DNA of 39,689 nt from an uncultured bacterium (GCA_938040315.1 CALHQW010000037.1:1-39689); one strand, 5' to 3'; positions 19,569-39,689 are shown, counted from the first letter of the stretch. The notes: generated from the sequence alone by a model not told the origin. Numbers and translations are program-made.

Positions 19569-20477
19569 TTAAAATAAAACTGGTAATTTCTCCTCTTTAA
19601 TATTTACCATTTTACAGAATTCAATAACTTCTTTTTCTATTTCCTTTTTACCAAGAACAATTTTTTTTACTTCTTTTTCTAAATTAGGAGCAAAGAGATA
19701 GTAATAATCTTTGTTGCTACCATAAAGCACACCGCAAGCAAAATAATCACCCTCTTTATCAACCAAACCACAAGAAACATTTAATTGCGTCATCTCGCCT
19801 TCCCAAATATCCCATCTTTTATCAATCAAATATCGCTTACCATTTTTAAAATATCGTAACCAAGATTCAACACGAAATTTTTTTCTTTTATTAGGTGATT
19901 TACTTTTTATCCCTTTTGGTGCGGAAATTGTGAAAATTTTTCCACCGCCTTCCATTTCCTTTTCCGAGAGATATTCTTCATTATTTTGATTAGTGGGAAT
20001 ATCGGTGGGTTTGAGAAGAATTACGACATATTTAGGTGAAATCACTTCCATTTCTAAAGAAAGAAGTAAACTCATAAAATTTTTGTCGCGGAGATAAGAG
20101 ATAGATTCAATAATAAATAGGTCTAAATCCAATTTTTTACTCATCAATTTTTTAAAACCGAATAAAATATTTTTTTGGGCAAAGGGATGGGAAGGTGAAA
20201 TTGCTCCTACAAAATAGACTTCTTTGGGTGCTATCTCATAAAGTCCTTCGACTTCTTTTTCTAATATTCCAATTCCCATTGTGGTTGGTGGCCCAATATT
20301 TGACTGACCAATATCCATATCCAAGACACCGGTCTTTAACTTTGCCTTATAACCTTGATTGGCTAAATAGGTAGTAAAAAAAGTTTTGCCTACATTACCC
20401 CGACCCAATATCAACACTTTTCCGGGAGAAGTTATAATCTCTTCACACACCTTCTGCCAACTTTTTGGGATTTCCAT
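19569..20477 (-). CDS. Clp1/Grc3/NOL9-like polynucleotide 5'-hydroxyl kinase
   Basis: A 302-residue P-loop protein of the Clp1_P type, known mainly from eukaryotic and archaeal RNA 5'-OH kinases. Walker A is GRGNVGKT (25-32). The diagnostic lid/Walker B region follows as LDMDIGQSNIGPPTTMGIG (about 52-70). The C-terminal quarter (WEGEMTQLNVSCGLVD, then GDYFACGVLYG) matches the small beta domain of archaeal family members. The expected reaction is transfer of phosphate from ATP to a 5'-hydroxyl RNA end, suggesting RNA repair or rRNA maturation. It has its own promoter and precedes the ribosomal operon in the same direction, which suits a role in rRNA or tRNA processing (inference). Confidence 0.75.
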   Translation of the reverse strand: MEIPKSWQKVCEEIITSPGKVLILGRGNVGKTFFTTYLANQGYKAKLKTGVLDMDIGQSNIGPPTTMGIGILEKEVEGLYEIAPKEVYFVGAISPSHPFAQKNILFGFKKLMSKKLDLDLFIIESISYLRDKNFMSLLLSLEMEVISPKYVVILLKPTDIPTNQNNEEYLSEKEMEGGGKIFTISAPKGIKSKSPNKRKKFRVESWLRYFKNGKRYLIDKRWDIWEGEMTQLNVSCGLVDKEGDYFACGVLYGSNKDYYYLFAPNLEKEVKKIVLGKKEIEKEVIEFCKMVNIKEEKLPVLF

Positions 20478-20972: not shown

Positions 20973-23900
20973 ATGGTTATATTACTTTTTATTAGTTTTT
21001 TTATTAATTTTAATGGTGCTCGGTATTTAATTATTGCTCCTGATGAATATAAACCAATATTAGAAGAGTTATGTAATTGGAAAAATGAAAAGGGAATAAA
21101 ATCTTATATTGCCACTCTTTCCCAAACCGGTCGGACTATTGATAGTATTAAAAATTATATTGTTAATGCTTATAATAATTGGCCTATAAAACCAGAATTT
21201 ATCTTACTTGCTGGTGCTCCCAATTTTATTCCCAGTTATAATTCAAGAATTGATGATTATTACGGAGACCTTACTGGTAATTATTTAATTGAAATTCCAG
21301 TAGGACGCTTACCTTTTAGAAATTTTACTCAGTGTTCAACAATGATAAGAAAAATTTTGGCTTATGAGAAAGGCGAACTCTTTACCCAAGATACGAGTTT
21401 TGTTTTAAAACTAACAACAATTGTAAGAGAAGATAATCCTCCTGATCCTTATTACCAGGCGGACGCTCGATATATAAGAAATCTTGCCTTAGAAAATGGT
21501 TTTATTCTTACGGAAAGCCTTTTAAATCTCTCAGGACATAATGCTAATAATGTTATCAATAGTATGAATAATGGGCGAGCCTTTTTAGTCTATCGGGGAC
21601 AAGGTGTAGGCAATTGGTGGTCACCTTTTAATATTAATGTTTCCTTAGCAAATAATTTAAATAAATTACCAATTGTTATTTCGGCCACTTGTCAAACGAT
21701 GGCTTTAGGAGTTAATGAAAGCATGTTAGGTGAGGCTTTTATGAGATTTGGAAAGCCTTGCTCTTTAAAAGGAGCGATTGCCTTTTTCGGTACCACTACT
21801 TCCGGCAGCGGTATTTCTCAGCAACGGGGGGTTTATTCCCGAGCATTTTTTGATGCAATTTTTAATAATAAAATTTATAAATTGGGTTTAATTCATAAAA
21901 GGGCAAAATATGTGTTAGATTCAATTTTTCATAATCAAACCCGTTATCAAGAATGGAATTTTTATGGCTGTCCCGAAATGCCTATTTGGACACAAAAACC
22001 AAAAAAGTTAATAATTGAGTGCGATACCATTGTCAATTTAGAACCCCAAGAATATTTAATAAGAATTAAAGATTCAATAACCCAAATACCAATTCCTAAT
22101 GTCTTTGTCTGTTTAACAATGGATTCGACTATTTATCTTTTTGATTCTACGGACAATGCTGGCTATGTGTATTTTAATTTCTCTCCTTCTCATATCGGTA
22201 ATTTTAAAATTGTTGCCCATTATTATAACTATTTACCAAAAATTAAAATGGGCAGAGTAATTCCGGGAAATATCCCTTATTTACAATATCAAAATATTAC
22301 AATTAATGATTATCCCCATGGTAATGGCGATAATCAAATAAATCCGGGTGAAGAAATCTGGGGCTATCTTAAAATCAAAAATATTGGTCAATCTCCTGCT
22401 TATAATGTAAAAGGTATTTTAAGGAGTAATGTTGTTAATATTTTAGATTCATTATTAAATTTTCATAATATCCTGCCGAATGATAGTTCTTCTTCTTATT
22501 ATCGGTTTTATACTCCTCAAACCTGTACTGCCTATCAACAAATTCCCTTTAATTTAATTTTGAAAGATACCTTTAATAATGAATGGCATCTTAATTTTTC
22601 CCTAACAATATTTGCGGGCAAAATTAAAATAATCTCTTTCTTTATCAATGATTCACCACCTTTCGGCAATAACAATCACCAATTAGGAAGAAATGAGGGA
22701 ATAAAATTAATTCCCAAAATTACAAATGTGGGCAATAGTTTTTTAAAAAATATTGGACTGAAAATTTTAACCATTGGTATTACCCAAAATTATATTAACC
22801 TTATTGATTCTTTAACCCATCTATCTTTTATAAATTCTAATGAGACAATCTTTAATTCCGAAAGATACTTTACTTTAACCAGTTCTTCTAATTTATTAGC
22901 AAATTATCCCTTTCCTTTTAAAATTTATATTCGTGGTTTTGGCGAAACCTATCAGATTTTTGATAGTTTTAGTTTCCATTTAGTATCAGAAAATTTAGGT
23001 AATATTGAACCGGTTGGTCCGGATAATTATGGTTATTATGCCTACGATGAAATTGATACTTTAACTGGTCAAGCGCCTATTTATGAGTGGCGTGAAATTT
23101 CCCAAATTGGTCGGTTAATACCAGAAATATCTAATCATGATGCGAGTGTTATAACTCTACCTTTACCTTTTCGTTTTAAATATTATGGAGTTTTTTATGA
23201 TTCTATCTCAATCTCTTCTAATGGTTTTTTGGCAATGGGAAGAACTGATTATCGTTTTGGCAATAATGGACCAATTCCTGATACGAGTGGACCACCGGCA
23301 ATGCTTGCTCCTTTCTGGGATGATTTAAATACTGATGAAAGCCAAAATAATGGTTACGGAGATATTTATGAATATTATGACGAAGAAAACCATCTTTATA
23401 TTGTTGAATTTTACCAAGTTGCTCACCACCGCAGACCCAATGTAAGAGAAACCTTCCAAGTTATTTTATATGACCCAAACTATTATCCAACACCAACGGG
23501 TGATGGTGAAATCCTTTTCCAATACTATCTTGTTGCCGATCCCACAAGTTTCACCTTAGGAATTGAAAATCCCTTAGAAAATGATGGTCTTCAATGTCTT
23601 TATAATAGTAATTATCATCCTCACACCGCTTTGCTTACTTCTCGCCGGGCAATTAAATTCACTACCAAAAGACCAATAACTCAAAAACCTTATCTAACAA
23701 TTATCAATATTTTTGCTTCTGATTCTTTAGGAAATAATAATGGAATTTTAGAACCTAACGAAAGGATTTTATTAACCTTTCAAATCAAAAATTTGGGCGA
23801 AACAACCGCCTTTAATACTTTGGGAATTCTTAGAAGTGTAGATAACAATGTTAATCTCATTGATTCTTTTAAAAATTTTGGTAACGTACCGGTCAACAAT

Positions 23901-24227
23901 GTGGTTGCCAATTCTTTGCCTTTTATCTTTGATATCGTTTCCGAACCAAATGATTCCATTTTAGACTTTTCTCTTTCTTTAAATTGTGATAATTATTCAA
24001 TTAATATTCCCTTTTATCTGCCAATTGGTTATCAGAGTAAAATAAAAGAAAAATTTTCAATAATAATTAGAAAAGCCTTCCCATTAAAACTTAATGAGAA
24101 GAATTCTTTAATTTTAAATCCTTTGGGTCAAAAAGTAAAAAAAGAGAAATTAAAAAAAGGGATATATTATCTTTTAATTAAAGAAGATAAAAGATGGTTA
24201 AAAAGAAAATTTATCTACTTACCTTAA
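20973..24227 (+). CDS. Secreted gingipain-family (peptidase C25) protein with altered catalytic His
   Basis: A 1084-residue exported protein. A short signal (1-15) is followed directly by the C25 caspase-like domain (about 16-340). The catalytic Cys is visible in IVISATCQTM (Cys240). The paired His, normally in a GHG motif, is Gln210 in YRGQGVGNWW (codon CAA, 21600-21602). Next come beta-sandwich and CARDB/NEW3-like repeats (about 345-660 and 900-1010), with a nidogen-like sheet domain at about 680-895 (FRFKYYGVFYDSISISSNGF). The tail (NPLGQKVKKEKLKKGIYYLL) resembles a shortened type IX secretion sorting domain. It heads a secreted-hydrolase operon. It may be an inactive or altered-specificity protease. 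Confidence 0.8.
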   Translation: MVILLFISFFINFNGARYLIIAPDEYKPILEELCNWKNEKGIKSYIATLSQTGRTIDSIKNYIVNAYNNWPIKPEFILLAGAPNFIPSYNSRIDDYYGDLTGNYLIEIPVGRLPFRNFTQCSTMIRKILAYEKGELFTQDTSFVLKLTTIVREDNPPDPYYQADARYIRNLALENGFILTESLLNLSGHNANNVINSMNNGRAFLVYRGQGVGNWWSPFNINVSLANNLNKLPIVISATCQTMALGVNESMLGEAFMRFGKPCSLKGAIAFFGTTTSGSGISQQRGVYSRAFFDAIFNNKIYKLGLIHKRAKYVLDSIFHNQTRYQEWNFYGCPEMPIWTQKPKKLIIECDTIVNLEPQEYLIRIKDSITQIPIPNVFVCLTMDSTIYLFDSTDNAGYVYFNFSPSHIGNFKIVAHYYNYLPKIKMGRVIPGNIPYLQYQNITINDYPHGNGDNQINPGEEIWGYLKIKNIGQSPAYNVKGILRSNVVNILDSLLNFHNILPNDSSSSYYRFYTPQTCTAYQQIPFNLILKDTFNNEWHLNFSLTIFAGKIKIISFFINDSPPFGNNNHQLGRNEGIKLIPKITNVGNSFLKNIGLKILTIGITQNYINLIDSLTHLSFINSNETIFNSERYFTLTSSSNLLANYPFPFKIYIRGFGETYQIFDSFSFHLVSENLGNIEPVGPDNYGYYAYDEIDTLTGQAPIYEWREISQIGRLIPEISNHDASVITLPLPFRFKYYGVFYDSISISSNGFLAMGRTDYRFGNNGPIPDTSGPPAMLAPFWDDLNTDESQNNGYGDIYEYYDEENHLYIVEFYQVAHHRRPNVRETFQVILYDPNYYPTPTGDGEILFQYYLVADPTSFTLGIENPLENDGLQCLYNSNYHPHTALLTSRRAIKFTTKRPITQKPYLTIINIFASDSLGNNNGILEPNERILLTFQIKNLGETTAFNTLGILRSVDNNVNLIDSFKNFGNVPVNNVVANSLPFIFDIVSEPNDSILDFSLSLNCDNYSINIPFYLPIGYQSKIKEKFSIIIRKAFPLKLNEKNSLILNPLGQKVKKEKLKKGIYYLLIKEDKRWLKRKFIYLP

Positions 24228-26608
24228 TTTTTTTATTATTCTTTCCAAATTTTAATGCTCAATCTTCTTTCTTTCCTTATAACTATGCGGAGATAGTTAA
24301 CAAGTTATATTATCTTCAATCCCAATATGAAGAAACTGCCAAAACTTTATCTAAATTTAAATTTCCCGACCGCTACCATACCTATGGCGAAATGGTAAAT
24401 GAATTACATTATCTTCATGTTCAATATCCAGAAATTACTAAAATCTATACTATTGGTTATACTCAAAGATTCAATTTACCTATTTTGGCAATAAGAATAA
24501 CTTCTAATCCTGATATTGAAGAACAGGATAAACCAGCCCTTCTTTTTGATGGCATACATCATGCCTCGGAAATTCTTGGCTGCGAAATGTGCCTTTATCT
24601 TGCTAATAAACTTTGCCAAAATTATTTCACTGATTCATTAATAAAAGTTTTTGTTGATAATTTAGATATCTGGATTGTGCCGATGGTTAATCCTGATGGC
24701 CATTACATTATTGAATTGGGCTTAGATTCTATTTGGCGAAAAAATTTACGGGATAATAATAATAACGGTAGGATCGATTTAGATTATGATGGTGTTGATT
24801 TGAATAGAAATTATGATTTTCTATTTGAACAAGGTGGTTCCGGCGAACCAAGGAATCGTTATTACCGTGGACCTTATCCTTTTTCGGAACCAGAAGTTCG
24901 GGCAATAAGAGATTTAGCACTAAAAAAGAAATTTATTTTAAATGTTTCTTTCCATTCGGATAAAAATCCCCATATGGGTGAAAGGGTTTATTATCCTTGG
25001 CGCTGGGGAAATAGTTTTTCTCCTGACCATCAACATATTAAAGCAATTTGTGATTCCTTTGCTTTAAATATTATAAATGATGAAAATAATGGAACTTATT
25101 TAAGTATTTACGGAAACGCCCAGGAAGGTGGTTTAGAAAGAAACTATTTATATTATGCCTTAGGAACCTTTGCTTTTACCTGTGAAATGTGGCGAGGCTA
25201 TTATCCACCGGAAGAAAGGGTTGATACCATCTGCGAAAAAGCATTTAATGGTGTCAAGTATTTACTAAAAAGGATTTTACAATCCCATTTAGCAATAAGG
25301 GTATTAGACTTAAATACCAGTAAGCCTTTAAAAGCGGAAGTAAGGGTTTTAGAAGCCTATGCACCACCGGAAACAATTTTACCAAGATATACCGACCCAA
25401 TCTTTGGCAGAGCAAGAAGGATATTAAAACCAGGAGTTTATACTATTGAAATTCTTAAAGAAGGTTATTATCCAAAAAGATTCAGTATTGAAGTTCCAGC
25501 CTTTAGCATTAAAGATACTACGATTTATTTAGAAAGGATGCCTGGCTGGATTAAAAAAAGGGATATCCCTTCTTTTAGAAAAGTAAGGAGTGGTGGTTCT
25601 TTATGTGCCTTAGAAGAAAAAATTTATGCATTGGTTGGCAATAACACAAATGATTTGTTCTGTTATGATATAAATTCTGATAGTTGGCAGAAGATTGGTG
25701 AGGTGCCAGAAGGGTTTATGAAAAAGAGAATTAAAAAAGGAGCATCAATTGGCACTGATGGCAGATATCTTTATATTGTGAAAGGAAATAATACCAAAGA
25801 ATTTTTCCGCTACGATTTAGTAAATAACTGTTGGAAGGAATACGAGATTAATTTTTCTAAAGGAATAAAAGGAAGTTCAATTACTTTTGATGGCGATTCT
25901 TTTATTTACATTATTTCTGGTTCTAATAATAATGAATGGAGAAAATTTAATATTTATACTGAAAAATTTGAGATTCCTAATCCACCAACCCTTCCTGGTG
26001 AAAAATGGCGGACAGGTTCCTGGATTGTGTATGCTGATAAGGCAATTTATGCTTTAAGAGTAGGCGGTAAAACTAATGAATTTTACAAAATAGTAAATGG
26101 TGAAGTAATAAGAAAAGAAGATATGCCATTAATTGGTTCAACTGGAAAACCAAAAAAGGCAAAAGAAGGAAGTGCTGGTGCTTATGATTATAATAATAAA
26201 TTAATTTATGCCTTAAAAGGTAATAATACCTTAGAATTCTTTTCTTATAACCCTGCTAATGAGCAATGGAAAATATTAGAAGATGTGGGTTTTCCTTTTG
26301 GAATACCAAAAAAGAAAATAAGTAGTGGCGGCGCTTTAACTTACTCAAATTTTGCCCAAGGTCTTTTTGCCTTTATCGGCAATAATACTAATGAGTTTTG
26401 GTTTTATCTTCCTCATCTAACATACCCTTTTGAAAGTCAAAATTTAATAATAAAGAAAGAAGATAAAAAAATTCTCTCTTTAAAAGAAAAGGAAATAAAA
26501 AGAATTGATTTAATTGGTAGAAAAATTAACTATAAAAATTTAAAACCAGGAATTTATTTCTTTTTAGGTAAGAAAAAAGTAATAATAAAAAATTCTAAAG
26601 AAAAATAA
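24194..26608 (+). CDS. Secreted M14 zinc carboxypeptidase with kelch-like repeats
   Basis: An 804-residue exported protein. A signal peptide (about 1-22) is followed by an M14 carboxypeptidase-T-like domain (about 55-385). Zinc ligands are His and Glu of HHASE and the His of SFHS; the substrate/transition-state arginines are in WRKN and LNRNYD, and the catalytic Glu is in FTCEMW. A small carboxypeptidase-regulatory-like domain (about 390-450) leads to kelch-type propeller repeats (about 460-710) with the recurrent GNNTxEFFxY pattern. The tail RIDLIGRKINYKNLKPGIYFF is a type IX-like sorting domain, written here as IDLIGRKI and LKPGIYFF. The start overlaps the C25 gene by 34 nt. It probably trims peptides released outside the cell. 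Confidence 0.85.
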   Translation: MVKKKIYLLTLIFLLFFPNFNAQSSFFPYNYAEIVNKLYYLQSQYEETAKTLSKFKFPDRYHTYGEMVNELHYLHVQYPEITKIYTIGYTQRFNLPILAIRITSNPDIEEQDKPALLFDGIHHASEILGCEMCLYLANKLCQNYFTDSLIKVFVDNLDIWIVPMVNPDGHYIIELGLDSIWRKNLRDNNNNGRIDLDYDGVDLNRNYDFLFEQGGSGEPRNRYYRGPYPFSEPEVRAIRDLALKKKFILNVSFHSDKNPHMGERVYYPWRWGNSFSPDHQHIKAICDSFALNIINDENNGTYLSIYGNAQEGGLERNYLYYALGTFAFTCEMWRGYYPPEERVDTICEKAFNGVKYLLKRILQSHLAIRVLDLNTSKPLKAEVRVLEAYAPPETILPRYTDPIFGRARRILKPGVYTIEILKEGYYPKRFSIEVPAFSIKDTTIYLERMPGWIKKRDIPSFRKVRSGGSLCALEEKIYALVGNNTNDLFCYDINSDSWQKIGEVPEGFMKKRIKKGASIGTDGRYLYIVKGNNTKEFFRYDLVNNCWKEYEINFSKGIKGSSITFDGDSFIYIISGSNNNEWRKFNIYTEKFEIPNPPTLPGEKWRTGSWIVYADKAIYALRVGGKTNEFYKIVNGEVIRKEDMPLIGSTGKPKKAKEGSAGAYDYNNKLIYALKGNNTLEFFSYNPANEQWKILEDVGFPFGIPKKKISSGGALTYSNFAQGLFAFIGNNTNEFWFYLPHLTYPFESQNLIIKKEDKKILSLKEKEIKRIDLIGRKINYKNLKPGIYFFLGKKKVIIKNSKEK

Positions 26609-33071: not shown

Positions 33072-33099
33072 TTGAAAATGGTATATTTTTTGATATAAT
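33072..33099 (+). promoter_or_regulatory. sigma-70-like promoter of poly-gamma-glutamate locus
   Basis: TTGAAA (33072-33077), a 16-nt spacer and TATAAT (33094-33099) end 10 nt before the ATG at 33110. The leader would be about 3-4 nt with no ribosome site. Confidence 0.65.
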
Positions 33100-33109
33100 A
33101 CAATATTAA

Positions 33110-34288
33110 ATGATTTTTGTTATTTCTTTTTTGCTTATCTTTCTTTTTTATCTTGTTTGGGAATATAAATTTCATAGAAGGAATCTTAAAAAAGTAAAAA
33201 TTAGAATTTTAGTTAACGGCACAAGAGGAAAATCTTCTACTTGCCGACTAATTGCCGGTGGTCTTTTAGGAAATAATAAAAAAGTTGCCTGTAAAACAAC
33301 GGGCACAAAACCAAGATTAATAATTAATAATAAAGAATTTCCAATTATCCGGTTAGGTCGAGCAAACATAATTGAGGAGAAGAAAATTTTTAAAAAGTTG
33401 AGTAAAGAAGAACTAGAATTTAGTATTACTGAATGTATGGCATTGGTTCCAGAGTATCAAACAATTTATAATGAAAAACTTACCCAACCTCATATTACTG
33501 TGATTACTAATGTGAGAAATGACCATTTAGATGTTATGGGACCAACCTTAAAGGATGTAGCGATAAATTTAGCAAGGACAATACCCAAAAAAGGTGTATT
33601 ATTTATCTTCGAAGATGAAAACTATTTAGATATATTTGAAAAGAAAGCGAAAGAAAGAAATTGCCAAATAGTATATGTGAAAAAAGAGAGCGTAAATGAT
33701 GAGATGATGAAAGGTTTTTCTTATATAGAACATAAAGAAAATGTTGCCTTAGCATTAGCGGTCTGTGAATATCTTGGTTGTAATAAAGAAAAAGCCCTTT
33801 TGGGTATGAAAAAAATTAATCCTGACCCAGGAGTTTTAAGAATCTTTGAAATAAAAATTAATGATAATCAAGCATATTTTATTAATACGATGGCAGCAAA
33901 TGATCCGGATTCAATTCTTTATCTTTGGGAAAAATTTAATATTTTAAATTATGACTACAAAATTGTTTTGATGAATTGTCGTGCTGACCGAGTAGAAAGG
34001 TCTGAACAATTAGGAGATTTAATAAATGAAAAATTTCTCGCTGATTATTATATAGCAACTGGTTTCTTAACTAAACCCTTTATTAATAAATTGAAAAGAA
34101 AGAACATCTTTGATTTAGAAAAGAAAGAACCAAAAGAAGTTTTTTCCAGAGTCTCGGAGATTATAAAAAGTAAAGAAAAAAATAAAAAATGGCTGATTTT
34201 TGCTACCGGAAATATTGTTGGCTACGGAGAAGACTTGGTTAAGGAATTCCAAAAACATGGTAAAGAGGTAGATTACAATTTATGGTAA
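33110..34288 (+). CDS. pgsB: Poly-gamma-glutamate synthase PgsB/CapB
   Basis: A 392-residue Mur-ligase-like amide ligase that polymerises glutamate through its gamma-carboxyl with ATP. An N-terminal membrane helix (about 2-18) is followed by the P-loop NGTRGKSSTC (about 36-45), TTGTKPRLI and VITNVRNDHLDVMG, all PgsB/CapB signatures. It heads the locus and overlaps pgsC by 7 nt. No PgsA/CapA protein is encoded in the window. Confidence 0.92.
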   Translation: MIFVISFLLIFLFYLVWEYKFHRRNLKKVKIRILVNGTRGKSSTCRLIAGGLLGNNKKVACKTTGTKPRLIINNKEFPIIRLGRANIIEEKKIFKKLSKEELEFSITECMALVPEYQTIYNEKLTQPHITVITNVRNDHLDVMGPTLKDVAINLARTIPKKGVLFIFEDENYLDIFEKKAKERNCQIVYVKKESVNDEMMKGFSYIEHKENVALALAVCEYLGCNKEKALLGMKKINPDPGVLRIFEIKINDNQAYFINTMAANDPDSILYLWEKFNILNYDYKIVLMNCRADRVERSEQLGDLINEKFLADYYIATGFLTKPFINKLKRKNIFDLEKKEPKEVFSRVSEIIKSKEKNKKWLIFATGNIVGYGEDLVKEFQKHGKEVDYNLW

Positions 34289-34740
34289 TAATTGAAGGAA
34301 TTGGTTTAGGAATGTTTTTAAGTTTTTTTATGACCGAAACAATTGGTCTTGCTGCCGGCGGAATTGTTGTTCCCGGTTATTTAGCTTTGAATCTCCATCA
34401 TCCCTTTAAAATTATTTTAACATTCTTTATTGCCTTAGCAGTGTATTTAATTAATCTTATTCTTTCTAAATATGTCATCCTTTACGGAAGAAGATTACTT
34501 TTAATCTCAGTAATCTTAGGTTATCTTTTTGGTTATTTTTTTAAACTATTTCCACCAATAACTTATCATCAACAGATATTAAATTGGGAAGTTATTGGCT
34601 ACGTTATTCCCGGTCTTTTAGCCTATTGGTCACAAAGGCAAGGAATTATTGAAACTTTTTCTACGGCAATTATTGGTAGTGTGATCACCCGCTTAATTTT
34701 AATATTAATTAATAATGGGAAATTTTTTATTTTCAAATGA
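34282..34740 (+). CDS. pgsC: Poly-gamma-glutamate biosynthesis membrane protein PgsC/CapC
   Basis: A 152-residue integral membrane protein with about four to five helices. The family start is visible as MTETIGLAAGGIVVPGYLAL. It forms the synthase with PgsB. Overlaps pgsB by 7 nt and the next gene by 4 nt, so stoichiometry is probably set by coupling. Confidence 0.9.
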   Translation: MVIIEGIGLGMFLSFFMTETIGLAAGGIVVPGYLALNLHHPFKIILTFFIALAVYLINLILSKYVILYGRRLLLISVILGYLFGYFFKLFPPITYHQQILNWEVIGYVIPGLLAYWSQRQGIIETFSTAIIGSVITRLILILINNGKFFIFK

Positions 34741-35738
34741 GAAAAAGAATTGGTAAAGTAGGAAGAGAAGTCCTTATTCTTTATGCTCTTTTATCAATCA
34801 TTTTTTTTCTTGTTCTTACCTTTACTGTTAAAGAAGAAAAAAGTAAATATTATACCGAAAAAATAGAAGCAGTAAAGAAAGCAAAGGAAGCTATGGAAAT
34901 AATAAAAAATTCACGACTAAATTACGGAATTCCCATTGATATAATTAATGACCCAAAAGAAACCGGTTTAATTTTTCATCCCTATTCAGTTTTAACTTAT
35001 GAAAGAACAAATTTATCTTTATCCCAGGCATCCCTCTCGCCCAATTTTGCTGCTTTTTTTATTGAGATTTTAAAAGATAAAAGATTAAAAGAAAATGATA
35101 CAATTATCCTTTTATTAGATGGCAGTTTTCCCGCTTTAAACCTTTCTCTTCTTTCCGCTTTAGAAATTCTCAAAATTAAACCAATTATCTTATTACAAGT
35201 TGCCTCTATCTCTTACGGTGCTAACGACCCAAATTTTACTTTTTTGGAAATTCTTAAAATTTTAAAAGATAATAAAATATTTGATTTCAATTGTGAATAT
35301 GCCTCTTTAGGTGGAAAGAATGATTTAGGTGAAGGATTGTCGCAAGAAGCAAGGGAATTTATTAAAGAAAAAATTAATTATTATAATATAAAATTAATCA
35401 TTGCGGAAAATGAATCTCTGCAAATTTTATTAAAAAAAGATTTATTAAAAAACTATAATTATAAGGGAATTATTGCTATCTCTTATGATTTATCTTTTAA
35501 AGAAACAGATAAAAGAATATTTTTTTATCACTTTAATAATCCCATTAATTTAAAAGAAGAATACGAAATCAAAGATGAATTATTTAAAGGCAGATTATTT
35601 CTAGAAAAAAGATATTCCCTTTTTTATACGGCCCTTTTTTTAATTATCTTACTTGTTTTATTATATCTCATAATCAAATATGATTTAGAATATTATTTAA
35701 TTAAAAGAAAAGAAAAAATTTATGAGGAGGGAGTATGA
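34737..35738 (+). CDS. Poly-gamma-glutamate system protein (PgsW-like)
   Basis: A 333-residue protein of the family annotated as poly-gamma-glutamate system protein. N-terminal membrane helix (about 12-32), a large external domain with GIPIDIINDPKETGLIFHP-type start (NDPKETGLIFHPYS) and SLSQASLSPNFAA, and a C-terminal membrane helix (about 298-318). It takes the place that pgsA/capA occupies in Bacillus loci and may assist polymer synthesis or export. Coupled to pgsC and to the next gene by ATGA overlaps. Confidence 0.8.
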   Translation: MRKRIGKVGREVLILYALLSIIFFLVLTFTVKEEKSKYYTEKIEAVKKAKEAMEIIKNSRLNYGIPIDIINDPKETGLIFHPYSVLTYERTNLSLSQASLSPNFAAFFIEILKDKRLKENDTIILLLDGSFPALNLSLLSALEILKIKPIILLQVASISYGANDPNFTFLEILKILKDNKIFDFNCEYASLGGKNDLGEGLSQEAREFIKEKINYYNIKLIIAENESLQILLKKDLLKNYNYKGIIAISYDLSFKETDKRIFFYHFNNPINLKEEYEIKDELFKGRLFLEKRYSLFYTALFLIILLVLLYLIIKYDLEYYLIKRKEKIYEEGV

Positions 35739-36451
35739 AAAAATTTCTAATAATTTTTCTTTTCTTTTTTATCTTTGCTGAAACTTTAGAAATTAAAAAA
35801 ACACCAACAATTAAAATCCGGGTTCTAAAACCGATTGAAGAAGAATATTATCTTTTAACGAAAGATACCCCAATCAAAATCAAAGTAAAAGGACCAAGAA
35901 TTTTAAAAATTTATACCCGACTTTTATTTTTACCATTAAACCATCCCCAATTCCAAACTACCGGAAGTTATAAAATTCTTTTAAAAACTGATGATAAAGA
36001 ATATATTTATCATTTTACAACAGAAATTTCTAAACATGCGTATGATAAAAGAAAAAGGTATTACGGAAAATGGCGTTCGATCAATTTTGAAGTTCCTTCT
36101 GGAATCCACGAATATCAATTATTTCTTTTTGATGCTAAAAAGGAAACAGTAGCAGTAATGTTGGAAGTAAAAAAACCGAGCGAATTTAAAGAAATAAAAG
36201 TTATCTCCCAAATTGATACTACACCCATAAAAATAAAACTTACCGGTCCTAATCAATTTCAAATCCGATTTTTAACAAAAGAGAAAATCGGAATAAACTA
36301 TCAAATAATAAAAAATGGCGAAATTATTTTAAAGGATACTTTAAAAAAGGTTCTTTTAAATATTAATGAAAAAGAAGCAGAAATCTTAATTGATGTGAAA
36401 CCTTCCGAAAAAATAAGTAAAATTAGAATTTATGAAAAAAGAAAGTTTTAA
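35735..36451 (+). CDS. Periplasmic protein with an internal repeat, in the poly-gamma-glutamate locus
   Basis: A 238-residue exported protein of unknown function. It has a signal peptide (about 1-16) and then a beta-rich body containing two similar segments, TPIKIKVKGP (45-54) and TPIKIKLTGP (163-172), each introducing a strand-rich stretch. That suggests two related beta-sandwich domains. It is preceded by the ribosome site GAGGAGGGAG and overlaps its neighbours (4 and 20 nt), so it belongs to the same operon. It may bridge the inner-membrane synthase and the outer membrane; this is inference. Confidence 0.65.
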   Translation: MKKFLIIFLFFFIFAETLEIKKTPTIKIRVLKPIEEEYYLLTKDTPIKIKVKGPRILKIYTRLLFLPLNHPQFQTTGSYKILLKTDDKEYIYHFTTEISKHAYDKRKRYYGKWRSINFEVPSGIHEYQLFLFDAKKETVAVMLEVKKPSEFKEIKVISQIDTTPIKIKLTGPNQFQIRFLTKEKIGINYQIIKNGEIILKDTLKKVLLNINEKEAEILIDVKPSEKISKIRIYEKRKF

Positions 36452-37355
36452 ATTTTTGATTATTTTTCTATTAATTAATTCACTTTTTGCTAATACTTTT
36501 GAATTTCAACAAGCCTTTATTTATGATGATAATATCTTCAAATTTTCTAAAAAGGATTTAGATTTATTTAGCAAAGGTAAAAAAGATAAAGATTATAAGA
36601 CCACCGATGATTTAATCACTTCTTTAGTTTTAAAATTAAATTTTTATCTTCAAAATTTTTTACTATCTCTCCAGACCGAAAATAACAGTTTCCTACAAAA
36701 TCCCAAGAAAAGTTATTTAAAATATCAAATATCAACAAAATTTTCTAAATTAAATTTTGGCTATATCTTTTTACCCAATTATTATCTCCGTAACTTTTAT
36801 CAAAAATCTTGTTTCTATACTCAACATTCTATCTTTTTAAAAATTAATTCCTCAAACTTTGGTGTCAAAATAAAAGACGAAATTAAATTATATAATGAAG
36901 ATTTTAAATATTATAACTCTAACTCCTTTTCAACAACCTTAGAATATCAAAAAGATATTAAAATCAGATATCAAATAATTGACAATTTAACTTTAACCAA
37001 AAATTGGGCAATTAACAAATTAAAAGAGCAAGAGCCCGATATCTCTTATTTTCAAATGGGCAACGAACTAAAACTAAAAAGACGAGGAGAACTTATTGAT
37101 CTAATATTAACTTTAGAAATTGAAAGAAGAAACTATTTAACTGAAATTGATTTAACTCACAAAGATCGGATTGATCACCTTTATTGTATCTCTTTTCAAA
37201 TACCGATAAAATTTAAAAGAACTTTATCAATTATTTTAGGTTATCGCTTTGAAAAAAGAGTCTGTCAAATCCCTTATCAAGAAGAATTTGAAGATATAAA
37301 AAGTTATCAAAAAAATGTCTTCTCTTTAAAATTAGTGAAAGGAGGTATTTTATGA
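36432..37355 (+). CDS. Putative outer-membrane beta-barrel of the poly-gamma-glutamate locus
   Basis: A 307-residue exported protein with a signal peptide ending near LFANTFEF (about 1-21). The rest alternates short aromatic and polar strands (LNFGYIFLPNYYLRNFY, ISFQIPIKFKRTLSIILGYRF, given here in part) as in an outer-membrane barrel. It has no enzymatic motif. Overlapping the previous gene by 20 nt and the next by 4 nt, it is fixed within the operon. The barrel assignment is by pattern only. A role as exit channel for the polymer is a hypothesis. Confidence 0.55.
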   Translation: MKKESFKFLIIFLLINSLFANTFEFQQAFIYDDNIFKFSKKDLDLFSKGKKDKDYKTTDDLITSLVLKLNFYLQNFLLSLQTENNSFLQNPKKSYLKYQISTKFSKLNFGYIFLPNYYLRNFYQKSCFYTQHSIFLKINSSNFGVKIKDEIKLYNEDFKYYNSNSFSTTLEYQKDIKIRYQIIDNLTLTKNWAINKLKEQEPDISYFQMGNELKLKRRGELIDLILTLEIERRNYLTEIDLTHKDRIDHLYCISFQIPIKFKRTLSIILGYRFEKRVCQIPYQEEFEDIKSYQKNVFSLKLVKGGIL

Positions 37356-38563
37356 AGAGAATTTATTTTCTTTTTCTTATTTTTCTTTTTTGTCATTATC
37401 CTTTAAAAGAAAAGGCGCCACCAAAAATTTTTAAACCTTCTTTTGACGAGATTTTTTCACCCTTTTCCCAAATTATTTTTGAATGGGAAAAAATTGATAA
37501 TATAATCTATTATCATTTTATTTTAGATGATACAAATACCTTCAAAACACCAATAATTGATACAATAATTTCTGAAAATTTTTTAATTTTAAAAGAATTA
37601 AAAGAAGGAAATTACTATTTTAAAATTAGATACTTAGATAAGGATTCAATTTATTCTACCTGGAGTGAAAGTAGGAGATTTAAAATTAGATTTTTGAATT
37701 TCCTCAAATCTTTTAAAACTGAAGGATATCCAAACGATGTCCTTTTTTATAATAATTATCTTTTCGTTGCTAGTGGCCAAGTAGGTTTGGAAATTTTTGA
37801 TGAAAAGGGAAAGAGAAAATCTTTTTCTGATAGAAGAAATATTCTTTATGGTCTTGCTTGTGATACTTTCAAAAATCTTCTTTATTTAGCCTATGGTGAA
37901 AAAGAATTAAGTATTTTAAATTTAAATCTATTACCCGACACAATTTATGAAATAAATTCTTTATCTTGGCCCATTGCCAATGCTTATGATTTAAGTATTT
38001 TAAACGAAAGTCTTGTTGTAATTGCTGCTGATAAACAATTTTTAGTAGTAAATGTGAAAGATACCTCTTTTTTATATTTAACAAACCAAATCTATTTTCC
38101 TTCTTCTTTAAGGGGTTCTTATACTTTTAACAATTTTGTTTTTCTTGCTTGCGAACAAGAAGGAGTGTTTATTTATCACCTGAGGGATACTCTTATTTTC
38201 TTATCAAATATTGATACACCAAACAATGCTCGTGATTTGGTTAGTAATGATACACTACTATTTGTTGCCGATGGTAGAGGGATTAGTATTATTAATATAA
38301 AAAATCCTTATAAACCAGTTTTTAAAAAAGAGATAGAAATAGCGGGTTATTGTAAAAAATTGTTTCTAAGGGATTCTTTATTGTTTGCTGCTTGTGGTTC
38401 CGGTGGTTTAAAGGTTTATAAAATTGTTAATGAACCAGATTATTTAAAAATATTATCGGAAATAAAATTTAGTGATTGTCGAACAGTATTTATAGATAAG
38501 AATTATCAAATTTATGTGGGTACACGAGACGAAGGTATCTTAATCTATCAAATAAATTTTTAA
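37352..38563 (+). CDS. Lipoprotein with fibronectin-like and LVIVD-type propeller domains
   Basis: A 403-residue lipoprotein. The lipobox is FLFC (about Cys14). A fibronectin/immunoglobulin-like domain (about 25-110; IIFEWEKIDNIIYYHF) leads to LVIVD-type beta-propeller repeats (about 115-400). These recur as a strand like NYLFVASGQVGLEIFD, LLFVADGRGISIINI and LLFAACGSGGLKVYKI. Such propellers are usually surface-exposed binding modules. Its ribosome site is GGAGGT and its start overlaps the barrel gene (ATGA). It is the last gene of the poly-gamma-glutamate locus. Confidence 0.75.
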   Translation: MKRIYFLFLIFLFCHYPLKEKAPPKIFKPSFDEIFSPFSQIIFEWEKIDNIIYYHFILDDTNTFKTPIIDTIISENFLILKELKEGNYYFKIRYLDKDSIYSTWSESRRFKIRFLNFLKSFKTEGYPNDVLFYNNYLFVASGQVGLEIFDEKGKRKSFSDRRNILYGLACDTFKNLLYLAYGEKELSILNLNLLPDTIYEINSLSWPIANAYDLSILNESLVVIAADKQFLVVNVKDTSFLYLTNQIYFPSSLRGSYTFNNFVFLACEQEGVFIYHLRDTLIFLSNIDTPNNARDLVSNDTLLFVADGRGISIINIKNPYKPVFKKEIEIAGYCKKLFLRDSLLFAACGSGGLKVYKIVNEPDYLKILSEIKFSDCRTVFIDKNYQIYVGTRDEGILIYQINF

Positions 38564-38564
38564 C

Positions 38565-39689
38565 TTAGGGTTCAAAAAGGGCACCAGCAAAAAGGATTAG
38601 ATTACTTCCTTTCTCAGTAATTAAAAAGAAGAAGGGTCTATTACATATCATTTTAAATTTTTCTCTTACTGCTGTTAAGGCAACTTCTACCGAAGTTACC
38701 GCGGCTGCTTCAGTTCCCTCTTCTGATACTTCCAGATAACTTTTATGTTTCACTTCGGAAATAAATAGATTATCAGGCTTTACCTCAACCATCTTAGAAA
38801 GATCGGCTTCATTAGGATTAAAGGCAATACTTAAATTAAGTTCCTTCAAAAGTTCCTTTAAATTTTTTTCATATTCAATTTTAAATTTTGGTAAGATTAT
38901 CTCACCTTCTTTTTTAGAAAGAGAATTTAAATAATTTTTTAACTCTTGGTAATCTAAATCATTGATAAATTGAATAAGAGAATAATCCTCTTTCGGTAAA
39001 AAGACATAAAAACCAAATTTTTCAGAAATATAGGGAAGATAAATTACTTGTAACTTTTCATTTTCATAATATAAAAAATCACCGTCCTTTTTCATATATA
39101 AAGTTTTCTTTTTCTTTCCATCAATTAAATAAAAATCGCCTTCAAAATTATTTTTTCTATCAAATTTCTCTTTCCACAACCCTTTAAAATAAATCGCATT
39201 TATTAAATAAAGAACCACCATCGGATTTATGGAATCAATTATTTTCTCTATCTTCCCTTCTGTTTTTTCTTTAACCCAATTATTAATTATTTTTATCGTT
39301 TTTGGATTATTAAAATCTAAATCTTTTATTTCGGCATTATAATAATTTTTATTTATCTCTAAAAATCGCTTTTTAAATTTAATTCTTTTTTTACCAAATA
39401 AACCATTAGCAATTTTTAATTGAATACCCTTTTCTTTTTTTAAGTTTTTTAAAACTTCTTTATTAATTTTATTAATACTCTCTAATTTTAAATTTTCCAA
39501 GAATAGAGATCTCTTAAAGGCTTCGGCTGTTTTTCCATCAGCACCATTATAAGTCATTAATAAGGCTTCAAAAATACTAAAGGGAGAGATAAAAGTATTA
39601 ATTTGTTTTTCTTTTATTAAAGATTGAAAGATTTTAAAACCAAATTGATTATTAGCGTCAAAAAATATAAATAAAATATTAAAAATTAT
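38565..39689 (-). CDS. Serpin, inhibitory type (5' end beyond window)
   Basis: At least 374 residues of a serine-protease inhibitor. The frame stays open past the ATG at 39557 to the window edge and reads ANNQFGFKIF, FISPFSIFEALL and TYNGADGKTAEA, the normal serpin N-terminus. An apparent signal-like hydrophobic stretch lies at the very edge, so the true start is just outside. INAIYFKGLWKEKFD and the C-terminal NRPFFFLI are present. The reactive-centre hinge EEGTEAAAVTS has the small residues needed for loop insertion, so it should inhibit rather than be inert. Counting from the hinge puts P1 at Thr (LT-AV), give or take one. Convergent with the propeller lipoprotein gene, 1 nt between stops. 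Confidence 0.92.
   Translation of the reverse strand: MIFNILFIFFDANNQFGFKIFQSLIKEKQINTFISPFSIFEALLMTYNGADGKTAEAFKRSLFLENLKLESINKINKEVLKNLKKEKGIQLKIANGLFGKKRIKFKKRFLEINKNYYNAEIKDLDFNNPKTIKIINNWVKEKTEGKIEKIIDSINPMVVLYLINAIYFKGLWKEKFDRKNNFEGDFYLIDGKKKKTLYMKKDGDFLYYENEKLQVIYLPYISEKFGFYVFLPKEDYSLIQFINDLDYQELKNYLNSLSKKEGEIILPKFKIEYEKNLKELLKELNLSIAFNPNEADLSKMVEVKPDNLFISEVKHKSYLEVSEEGTEAAAVTSVEVALTAVREKFKMICNRPFFFLITEKGSNLILFAGALFEP

Follow-up and report, generated by a model that had tools for sequence, protein, structure and literature searches.

A poly-gamma-glutamate operon in a WOR-3 bacterium that probably encodes its own outer-membrane export and surface-display module

How does poly-gamma-glutamate leave a cell that is enclosed by two membranes? 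The question is raised by a locus in the 39,689-nt stretch of DNA analyzed here (the window), which is the whole of contig C37 in a 1.49-Mb genome that is 98.1% complete. This genome belongs to the candidate phylum WOR-3, and its relatives in our genome set carry the names candidate division WOR-3, Stahlbacteria and Hydrothermota. Thin-section electron microscopy of sy37, the sole described WOR-3 isolate, shows an inner and an outer membrane (PMC12285271), and the window genome encodes Omp85/BamA-type proteins; a diderm envelope thus has good support. A preliminary description of the window had held that no dedicated route for the polymer across an outer membrane is well described. Our search of the open literature, with subscription papers mostly outside its scope, agrees: it returned neither an outer-membrane route for poly-gamma-glutamate nor a description of the module considered below, and the literature covered held no report of the polymer from WOR-3.

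The locus is confirmed as a six-gene operon, pgsB, pgsC, pgsW, orf4, orf5 and orf6, which occupies positions 33110-38563 on the plus strand. Neighboring genes overlap by 7, 4, 4, 20 and 4 nt, and the open reading frames bear out the unbroken run, with overlaps of 4-20 nt from pgsB onward, that had been described for this region. On the 5' side lies a 267-nt gap that contains a near-consensus promoter-like site (TTGAAA-16-TATAAT with a TG before the -10; 33072..33099, plus strand; 11/12 matches) 10 nt from pgsB; promoter and terminator scans of the region were overall no richer than shuffled sequence. The 3' boundary is set by a convergent serpin gene (38565-39557, minus strand; PF00079, E 3e-96), whose stop is 1 nt away from orf6 and which sits where relatives in other genera have a C25 protease. 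Elsewhere in the window, a protein with a CLP1-type P-loop polynucleotide kinase domain is encoded near the RpoA gene (19572-20477, minus strand).

The first three genes are those of polymer synthesis, as had been proposed, and all three products score above curated NCBIfam cut-offs. The ligase subunit of poly-gamma-glutamate synthase is encoded by pgsB (33110..34288, plus strand, 392 aa; TIGR04012, 397.8 bits versus a cut-off of 222.7); its product had no match in a PDB sequence search. Adjoining it across the 7-nt overlap, pgsC (34282..34740, plus strand, 152 aa) encodes the integral membrane subunit (TIGR04011, 121.8 bits versus 96.45; PF14102, 111 bits). The product of pgsW (34737..35738, plus strand, 333 aa), a 'poly-gamma-glutamate system protein' (TIGR04332, 190.5 bits versus 100), has a soluble domain between hydrophobic segments at both ends and, by alignment, is about 35 residues shorter than its relatives. 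Glutamate polymerization and passage of the chain across the inner membrane are known functions of the family of PgsB and PgsC. The reported lack of PgsA/CapA holds for the locus, where none of the six operon genes matches PF09587, but not for the genome, which has one such protein on contig C15. We considered this family as a missing partner and rejected it, because PF09587 is common in the phylum and not linked to pgsB (p 0.17).

What sets the operon apart is the three envelope genes that follow. None of their window copies has a Pfam or NCBIfam match above cut-off. The first, orf4 (35735..36451, plus strand, 238 aa), encodes a secreted or periplasmic protein with two homologous beta-sandwich domains (AlphaFold2 pLDDT 86.3). 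Its halves align to each other with an hhalign probability of 99.8% (E 8e-29), which upholds the earlier view of a duplicated-domain protein after pgsW. A fold search found it jelly-roll-like, with only weak matches at low TM scores and no close solved relative. Several WOR-3 families, Gemmatimonadota and Eisenbacteria have orf4-like domains joined to the N-terminus of the orf5 barrel in one protein, and these natural fusions argue for physical contact between orf4 and orf5.

The second of the three, orf5 (36432..37355, plus strand, 307 aa, with an N-terminal signal), is predicted to form a 14-strand outer-membrane beta-barrel. Modeling of what had been a putative barrel gave, from a 50-row alignment, 14 strands with a mean pLDDT of 93.6 and a pTM of 0.86, and by AlphaFold2 and Foldseek the predicted structure has the monomeric 14-strand fold of the OmpG family. 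OmpG was the first Foldseek match (E 3e-9); CymA was also matched, as was the polysaccharide outer-membrane secretin 4y25 (E 5.7e-8), which we take to be PgaA. Family-averaged hydrophobicity alternates between inward and outward positions in 14/14 strands, a pattern that is partly by construction because strand sides were assigned by hydrophobicity, although the in/out gap is nonetheless large in most strands. The window copy itself matches nothing in Pfam, including the OmpG porin family PF09381; weak matches to that family occur in 3 of 50 relatives (best E 2.9e-4), and these porin hits add to the support for a barrel. Averaged across the family, the net charge of the residues that face the lumen is +3.2 (+5 in the window copy), a mildly positive value that would suit a polyanion. 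As proof of a polyanion channel this charge was rejected: it is positive in 37 of 50 members and not positive in the other 13, but weak.

The last gene, orf6 (37352..38563, plus strand, 403 aa), encodes a probable lipoprotein in which an N-terminal part resembling fibronectin III precedes a beta-propeller of the LVIVD type. The assignment comes from the PF08309 match of an ortholog and from the Cys motif and, as it rests on a repeat family, is the least specific of our calls. The earlier label of LVIVD-propeller lipoprotein is firm for the ortholog (L137, 96.3 bits) and, as regards the lipobox or N-terminal Cys motif, clear in most orthologs, but it is weak for the window copy, which scores E 0.01 and 15.6 bits against a cut-off of 20.2 and whose lipobox reads LFC, with a non-canonical Phe at -1. 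We read the fibronectin-like N-terminal part as a probable addition in the window's group. In four other loci (L153, L161, L163 and L179), orf6-like propellers are enlarged to approximately 800 aa. Of orf4, orf5 and orf6, the last is the least constant: the Cloacimonadota loci examined lack it, as do some families of WOR-3.

Whether the three genes are conserved together with pgsBC had been set as a test beforehand, and within WOR-3 the answer was strongly positive. Among 147 genomes, PgsB (counted if full, near-full or present as clear fragments) was found in 72, the orf4 profile in 70 and the orf5 profile in 72. Cross-tabulation (both, pgsB alone, the other gene alone, neither) gave 66/6/4/71 for pgsB and orf4 and 67/5/5/70 for pgsB and orf5, each with a Fisher p of ~2e-29 that ignores ancestry, whereas the control pairing of pgsB with CapA (PF09587) in the same genomes gave 50/22/43/32 (p 0.17). 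Within eight genera (g8, g13, g14, g21, g31, g51, g60 and g79), pgsB, orf4 and orf5 are jointly present in some species and jointly absent from others, a pattern that is independent of deep ancestry. The association does not depend on adjacency: orf4 and orf5 lie on a separate contig from pgsB in four genomes (G131, G017, G018 and G019) and ~50 kb away in a fifth (G086). Many genomes are drafts in which absences are uncertain, and genes in relatives are longest-ORF calls with approximate starts; several exceptions to the pattern are contig edges or incomplete genomes, and one real exception in WOR-3 (G072) has pgsBCW alone. Conserved operons can include unrelated genes, but joint presence or absence within eight genera and co-occurrence even where the genes are unlinked largely refute the idea that orf4-6 are inherited neighbors with no functional tie to the polymer, which we consider very improbable.

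Related phyla tell a similar story. A genome-wide scan with a PgsW profile (10-row alignment) gave 80 named loci, and HMMs trained only on WOR-3 proteins recovered pgsW-orf4-orf5-orf6, with order kept, at 23 loci outside WOR-3, in Bacteroidales and other Bacteroidota, Ignavibacteria, Chlorobiota, Marinimicrobia, Gemmatimonadota and Eisenbacteria. Cloacimonadota loci have pgsB-C-W-orf4-orf5 without orf6; among 118 genomes of this phylum, pgsB was found in 102, orf5 in 103 and both in 95, with the two genes no more than 8 kb apart in 86 of those 95. Two Flavobacteriia loci (L165 and L170) have an unrelated protein of 376-378 aa in the place of orf5 that, from its sequence, looks like another beta-barrel. 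Diderms that have pgsBC and lack the three genes, which the preliminary description had regarded as speaking against its reading, do occur outside this group. Cetobacterium (Fusobacteriota, L182) has pgsBCW with no orf4-6 at the locus, Chroococcidiopsis has pgsBC next to an HlyD-type gene without the module, and one Nitrospirae genome has pgsBCW alone, with orf5 found nowhere in it; PgsW was present in 1 of 148 Nitrospirota genomes. The module is therefore lineage specific rather than a general diderm requirement, so that it belongs to one broad diderm group and other diderms must use another way. The reading of orf4-6 as a trans-envelope apparatus thus keeps its support in WOR-3 and related phyla but does not extend to all diderms with pgsBC.

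Because the pgs genes share an operon with three envelope genes and the set recurs across diderm phyla, we consider that in this group of diderms orf4-6 and PgsBCW probably form a module dedicated to poly-gamma-glutamate, which exports the polymer across the envelope and displays it on the cell surface. From gene identities, predicted folds, synteny, co-occurrence and the orf4-orf5 fusion we infer the direction of transport, passage through the barrel, the chemical identity of the polymer and the individual roles of orf4-6. PgsB and PgsC would polymerize glutamate and pass the chain across the inner membrane, with PgsW as an inner-membrane accessory in place of the Firmicutes PgsA/CapA. The orf4 protein would act as a periplasmic bridge that hands the chain to orf5, whose 14-strand barrel would be the exit pore in the outer membrane, and orf6, as a propeller lipoprotein of the outer membrane, would cap, gate or anchor the chain as it emerges. 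Many relatives have one more member, a peptidase of the C25 (gingipain) family, which may process the polymer or the surface proteins or attach them.

Of 70 WOR-3 loci, 30 have this peptidase directly 3' of the cassette. In a second set, which overlaps the first in organisms, 45 of 79 loci have it directly 5' of pgsB or 3' of the cassette, and many of the others are cut by contig ends. Examples from different phyla encode proteins of 1143-1521 aa (L137:4368-8147, L099:10622-14050 and L142:14196-18758), the last with a dockerin-type C-terminal domain. The gene after C25 in most WOR-3 pgs loci encodes a YCF48-like BNR propeller of ~430 aa (L099:14072-15358 and equivalents). The window genome encodes 11 C25 proteins, one of them inside the window, where at 20973-26605 (plus strand) the reading frame for this 1084-aa peptidase overlaps that for an 804-aa zinc carboxypeptidase carrying Kelch repeats. 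Such neighbors invite another reading, in which the product of pgsBCW would be a gamma-glutamyl modification or tether on some other envelope component rather than a free capsule, orf4-6 would assemble the layer and C25 would serve as a PorU-like or CapD-like transpeptidase. The C-terminal domains of the C25 neighbors, FlgD-like or T9SS-type in L137 and L099, fit this reading, as do the frequency of C25 beside the cassette and a weak structural match of orf4 to PorU. Yet their scores mark PgsB and PgsC as curated equivalogs of poly-gamma-glutamate synthase, no acceptor was identified, and C25 is absent from beside the cassette in the window's own genus; we regard the tether as unlikely.

The barrel also bears on direction, since OmpG-like barrels are usually uptake porins. 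Under this alternative, orf5 would import oligoglutamate released from the polymer for salvage, and orf4 and orf6 would be the binding proteins; the nearest solved folds of orf5 (OmpG and CymA) are indeed uptake porins, orf4 resembles ligand-binding jelly-roll domains, and the genome encodes many secreted C25 peptidases. However, the operon has neither an inner-membrane oligopeptide transporter nor a recognizable poly-gamma-glutamate hydrolase, orf4 and orf5 are conserved together with the synthesis genes, and a polymer made inside a diderm must exit in any case. We judge uptake rather improbable.

The export and display reading would give poly-gamma-glutamate a conserved, specific gene set for its exit, in diderm phyla that include groups of Bacteroidota and Ignavibacteria with cultured members. 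As the proposed exit pore carries a firm structural prediction, the question becomes one of gene deletions in a tractable host. The same reading predicts a polyglutamate layer on many uncultured phyla, such as WOR-3, Cloacimonadota and Gemmatimonadota. More tentatively, the set may represent a new class of outer-membrane exporter for a polyamide rather than a polysaccharide, in which a beta-sandwich protein with a duplicated domain works together with a 14-strand barrel. A gingipain-family peptidase would then act at the surface to attach or trim the polymer, as CapD does for the Bacillus capsule.

Among known systems, Bacillus PgsBCA(E)/CapBCA(E) is similar in PgsB and PgsC, which are curated equivalogs; the WOR-3 operon differs in lacking PgsA/CapA, in having PgsW and in its three added envelope genes. 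Cetobacterium somerae (L182) keeps the order pgsB-pgsC-pgsW but is without orf4-6 and has other partner genes: at L182:3020-7909, these are a gamma-glutamyltransferase, DUF6305, a TRAP permease and a succinylglutamate-desuccinylase-like gene. In presumed function the module resembles the surface-polysaccharide exporters PgaA, AlgE, BcsC and PelB, where the polymer would likewise leave through a monomeric barrel, and the PgaA structure 4y25 is among the Foldseek matches of orf5. The barrels of these four have 16-18 strands, whereas orf5 has 14 predicted strands and no TPR scaffold, its periplasmic partner is a beta-sandwich protein and its cargo would be a polyamide. In CapsuleFinder, CapB and CapC are what defines a poly-gamma-glutamate capsule, CapA and CapE count as accessory, and most phyla are reported to have such capsules (PMC5542703). 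In the Francisella capBCA system, CapA is termed a 'poly-gamma-glutamate system protein' (PMC5362203). A recent study of Cloacimonadota (ISME J 2026) describes a three-gene operon, CapB, CapC and CapA/PgsF, with polymer clumps seen by DAPI staining (PMC13082233); its main text mentions neither 'outer membrane' nor 'export' and leaves orf4 and orf5 unremarked, and its operon is the same phylum-wide pgs system as that of the Cloacimonadota loci described here.
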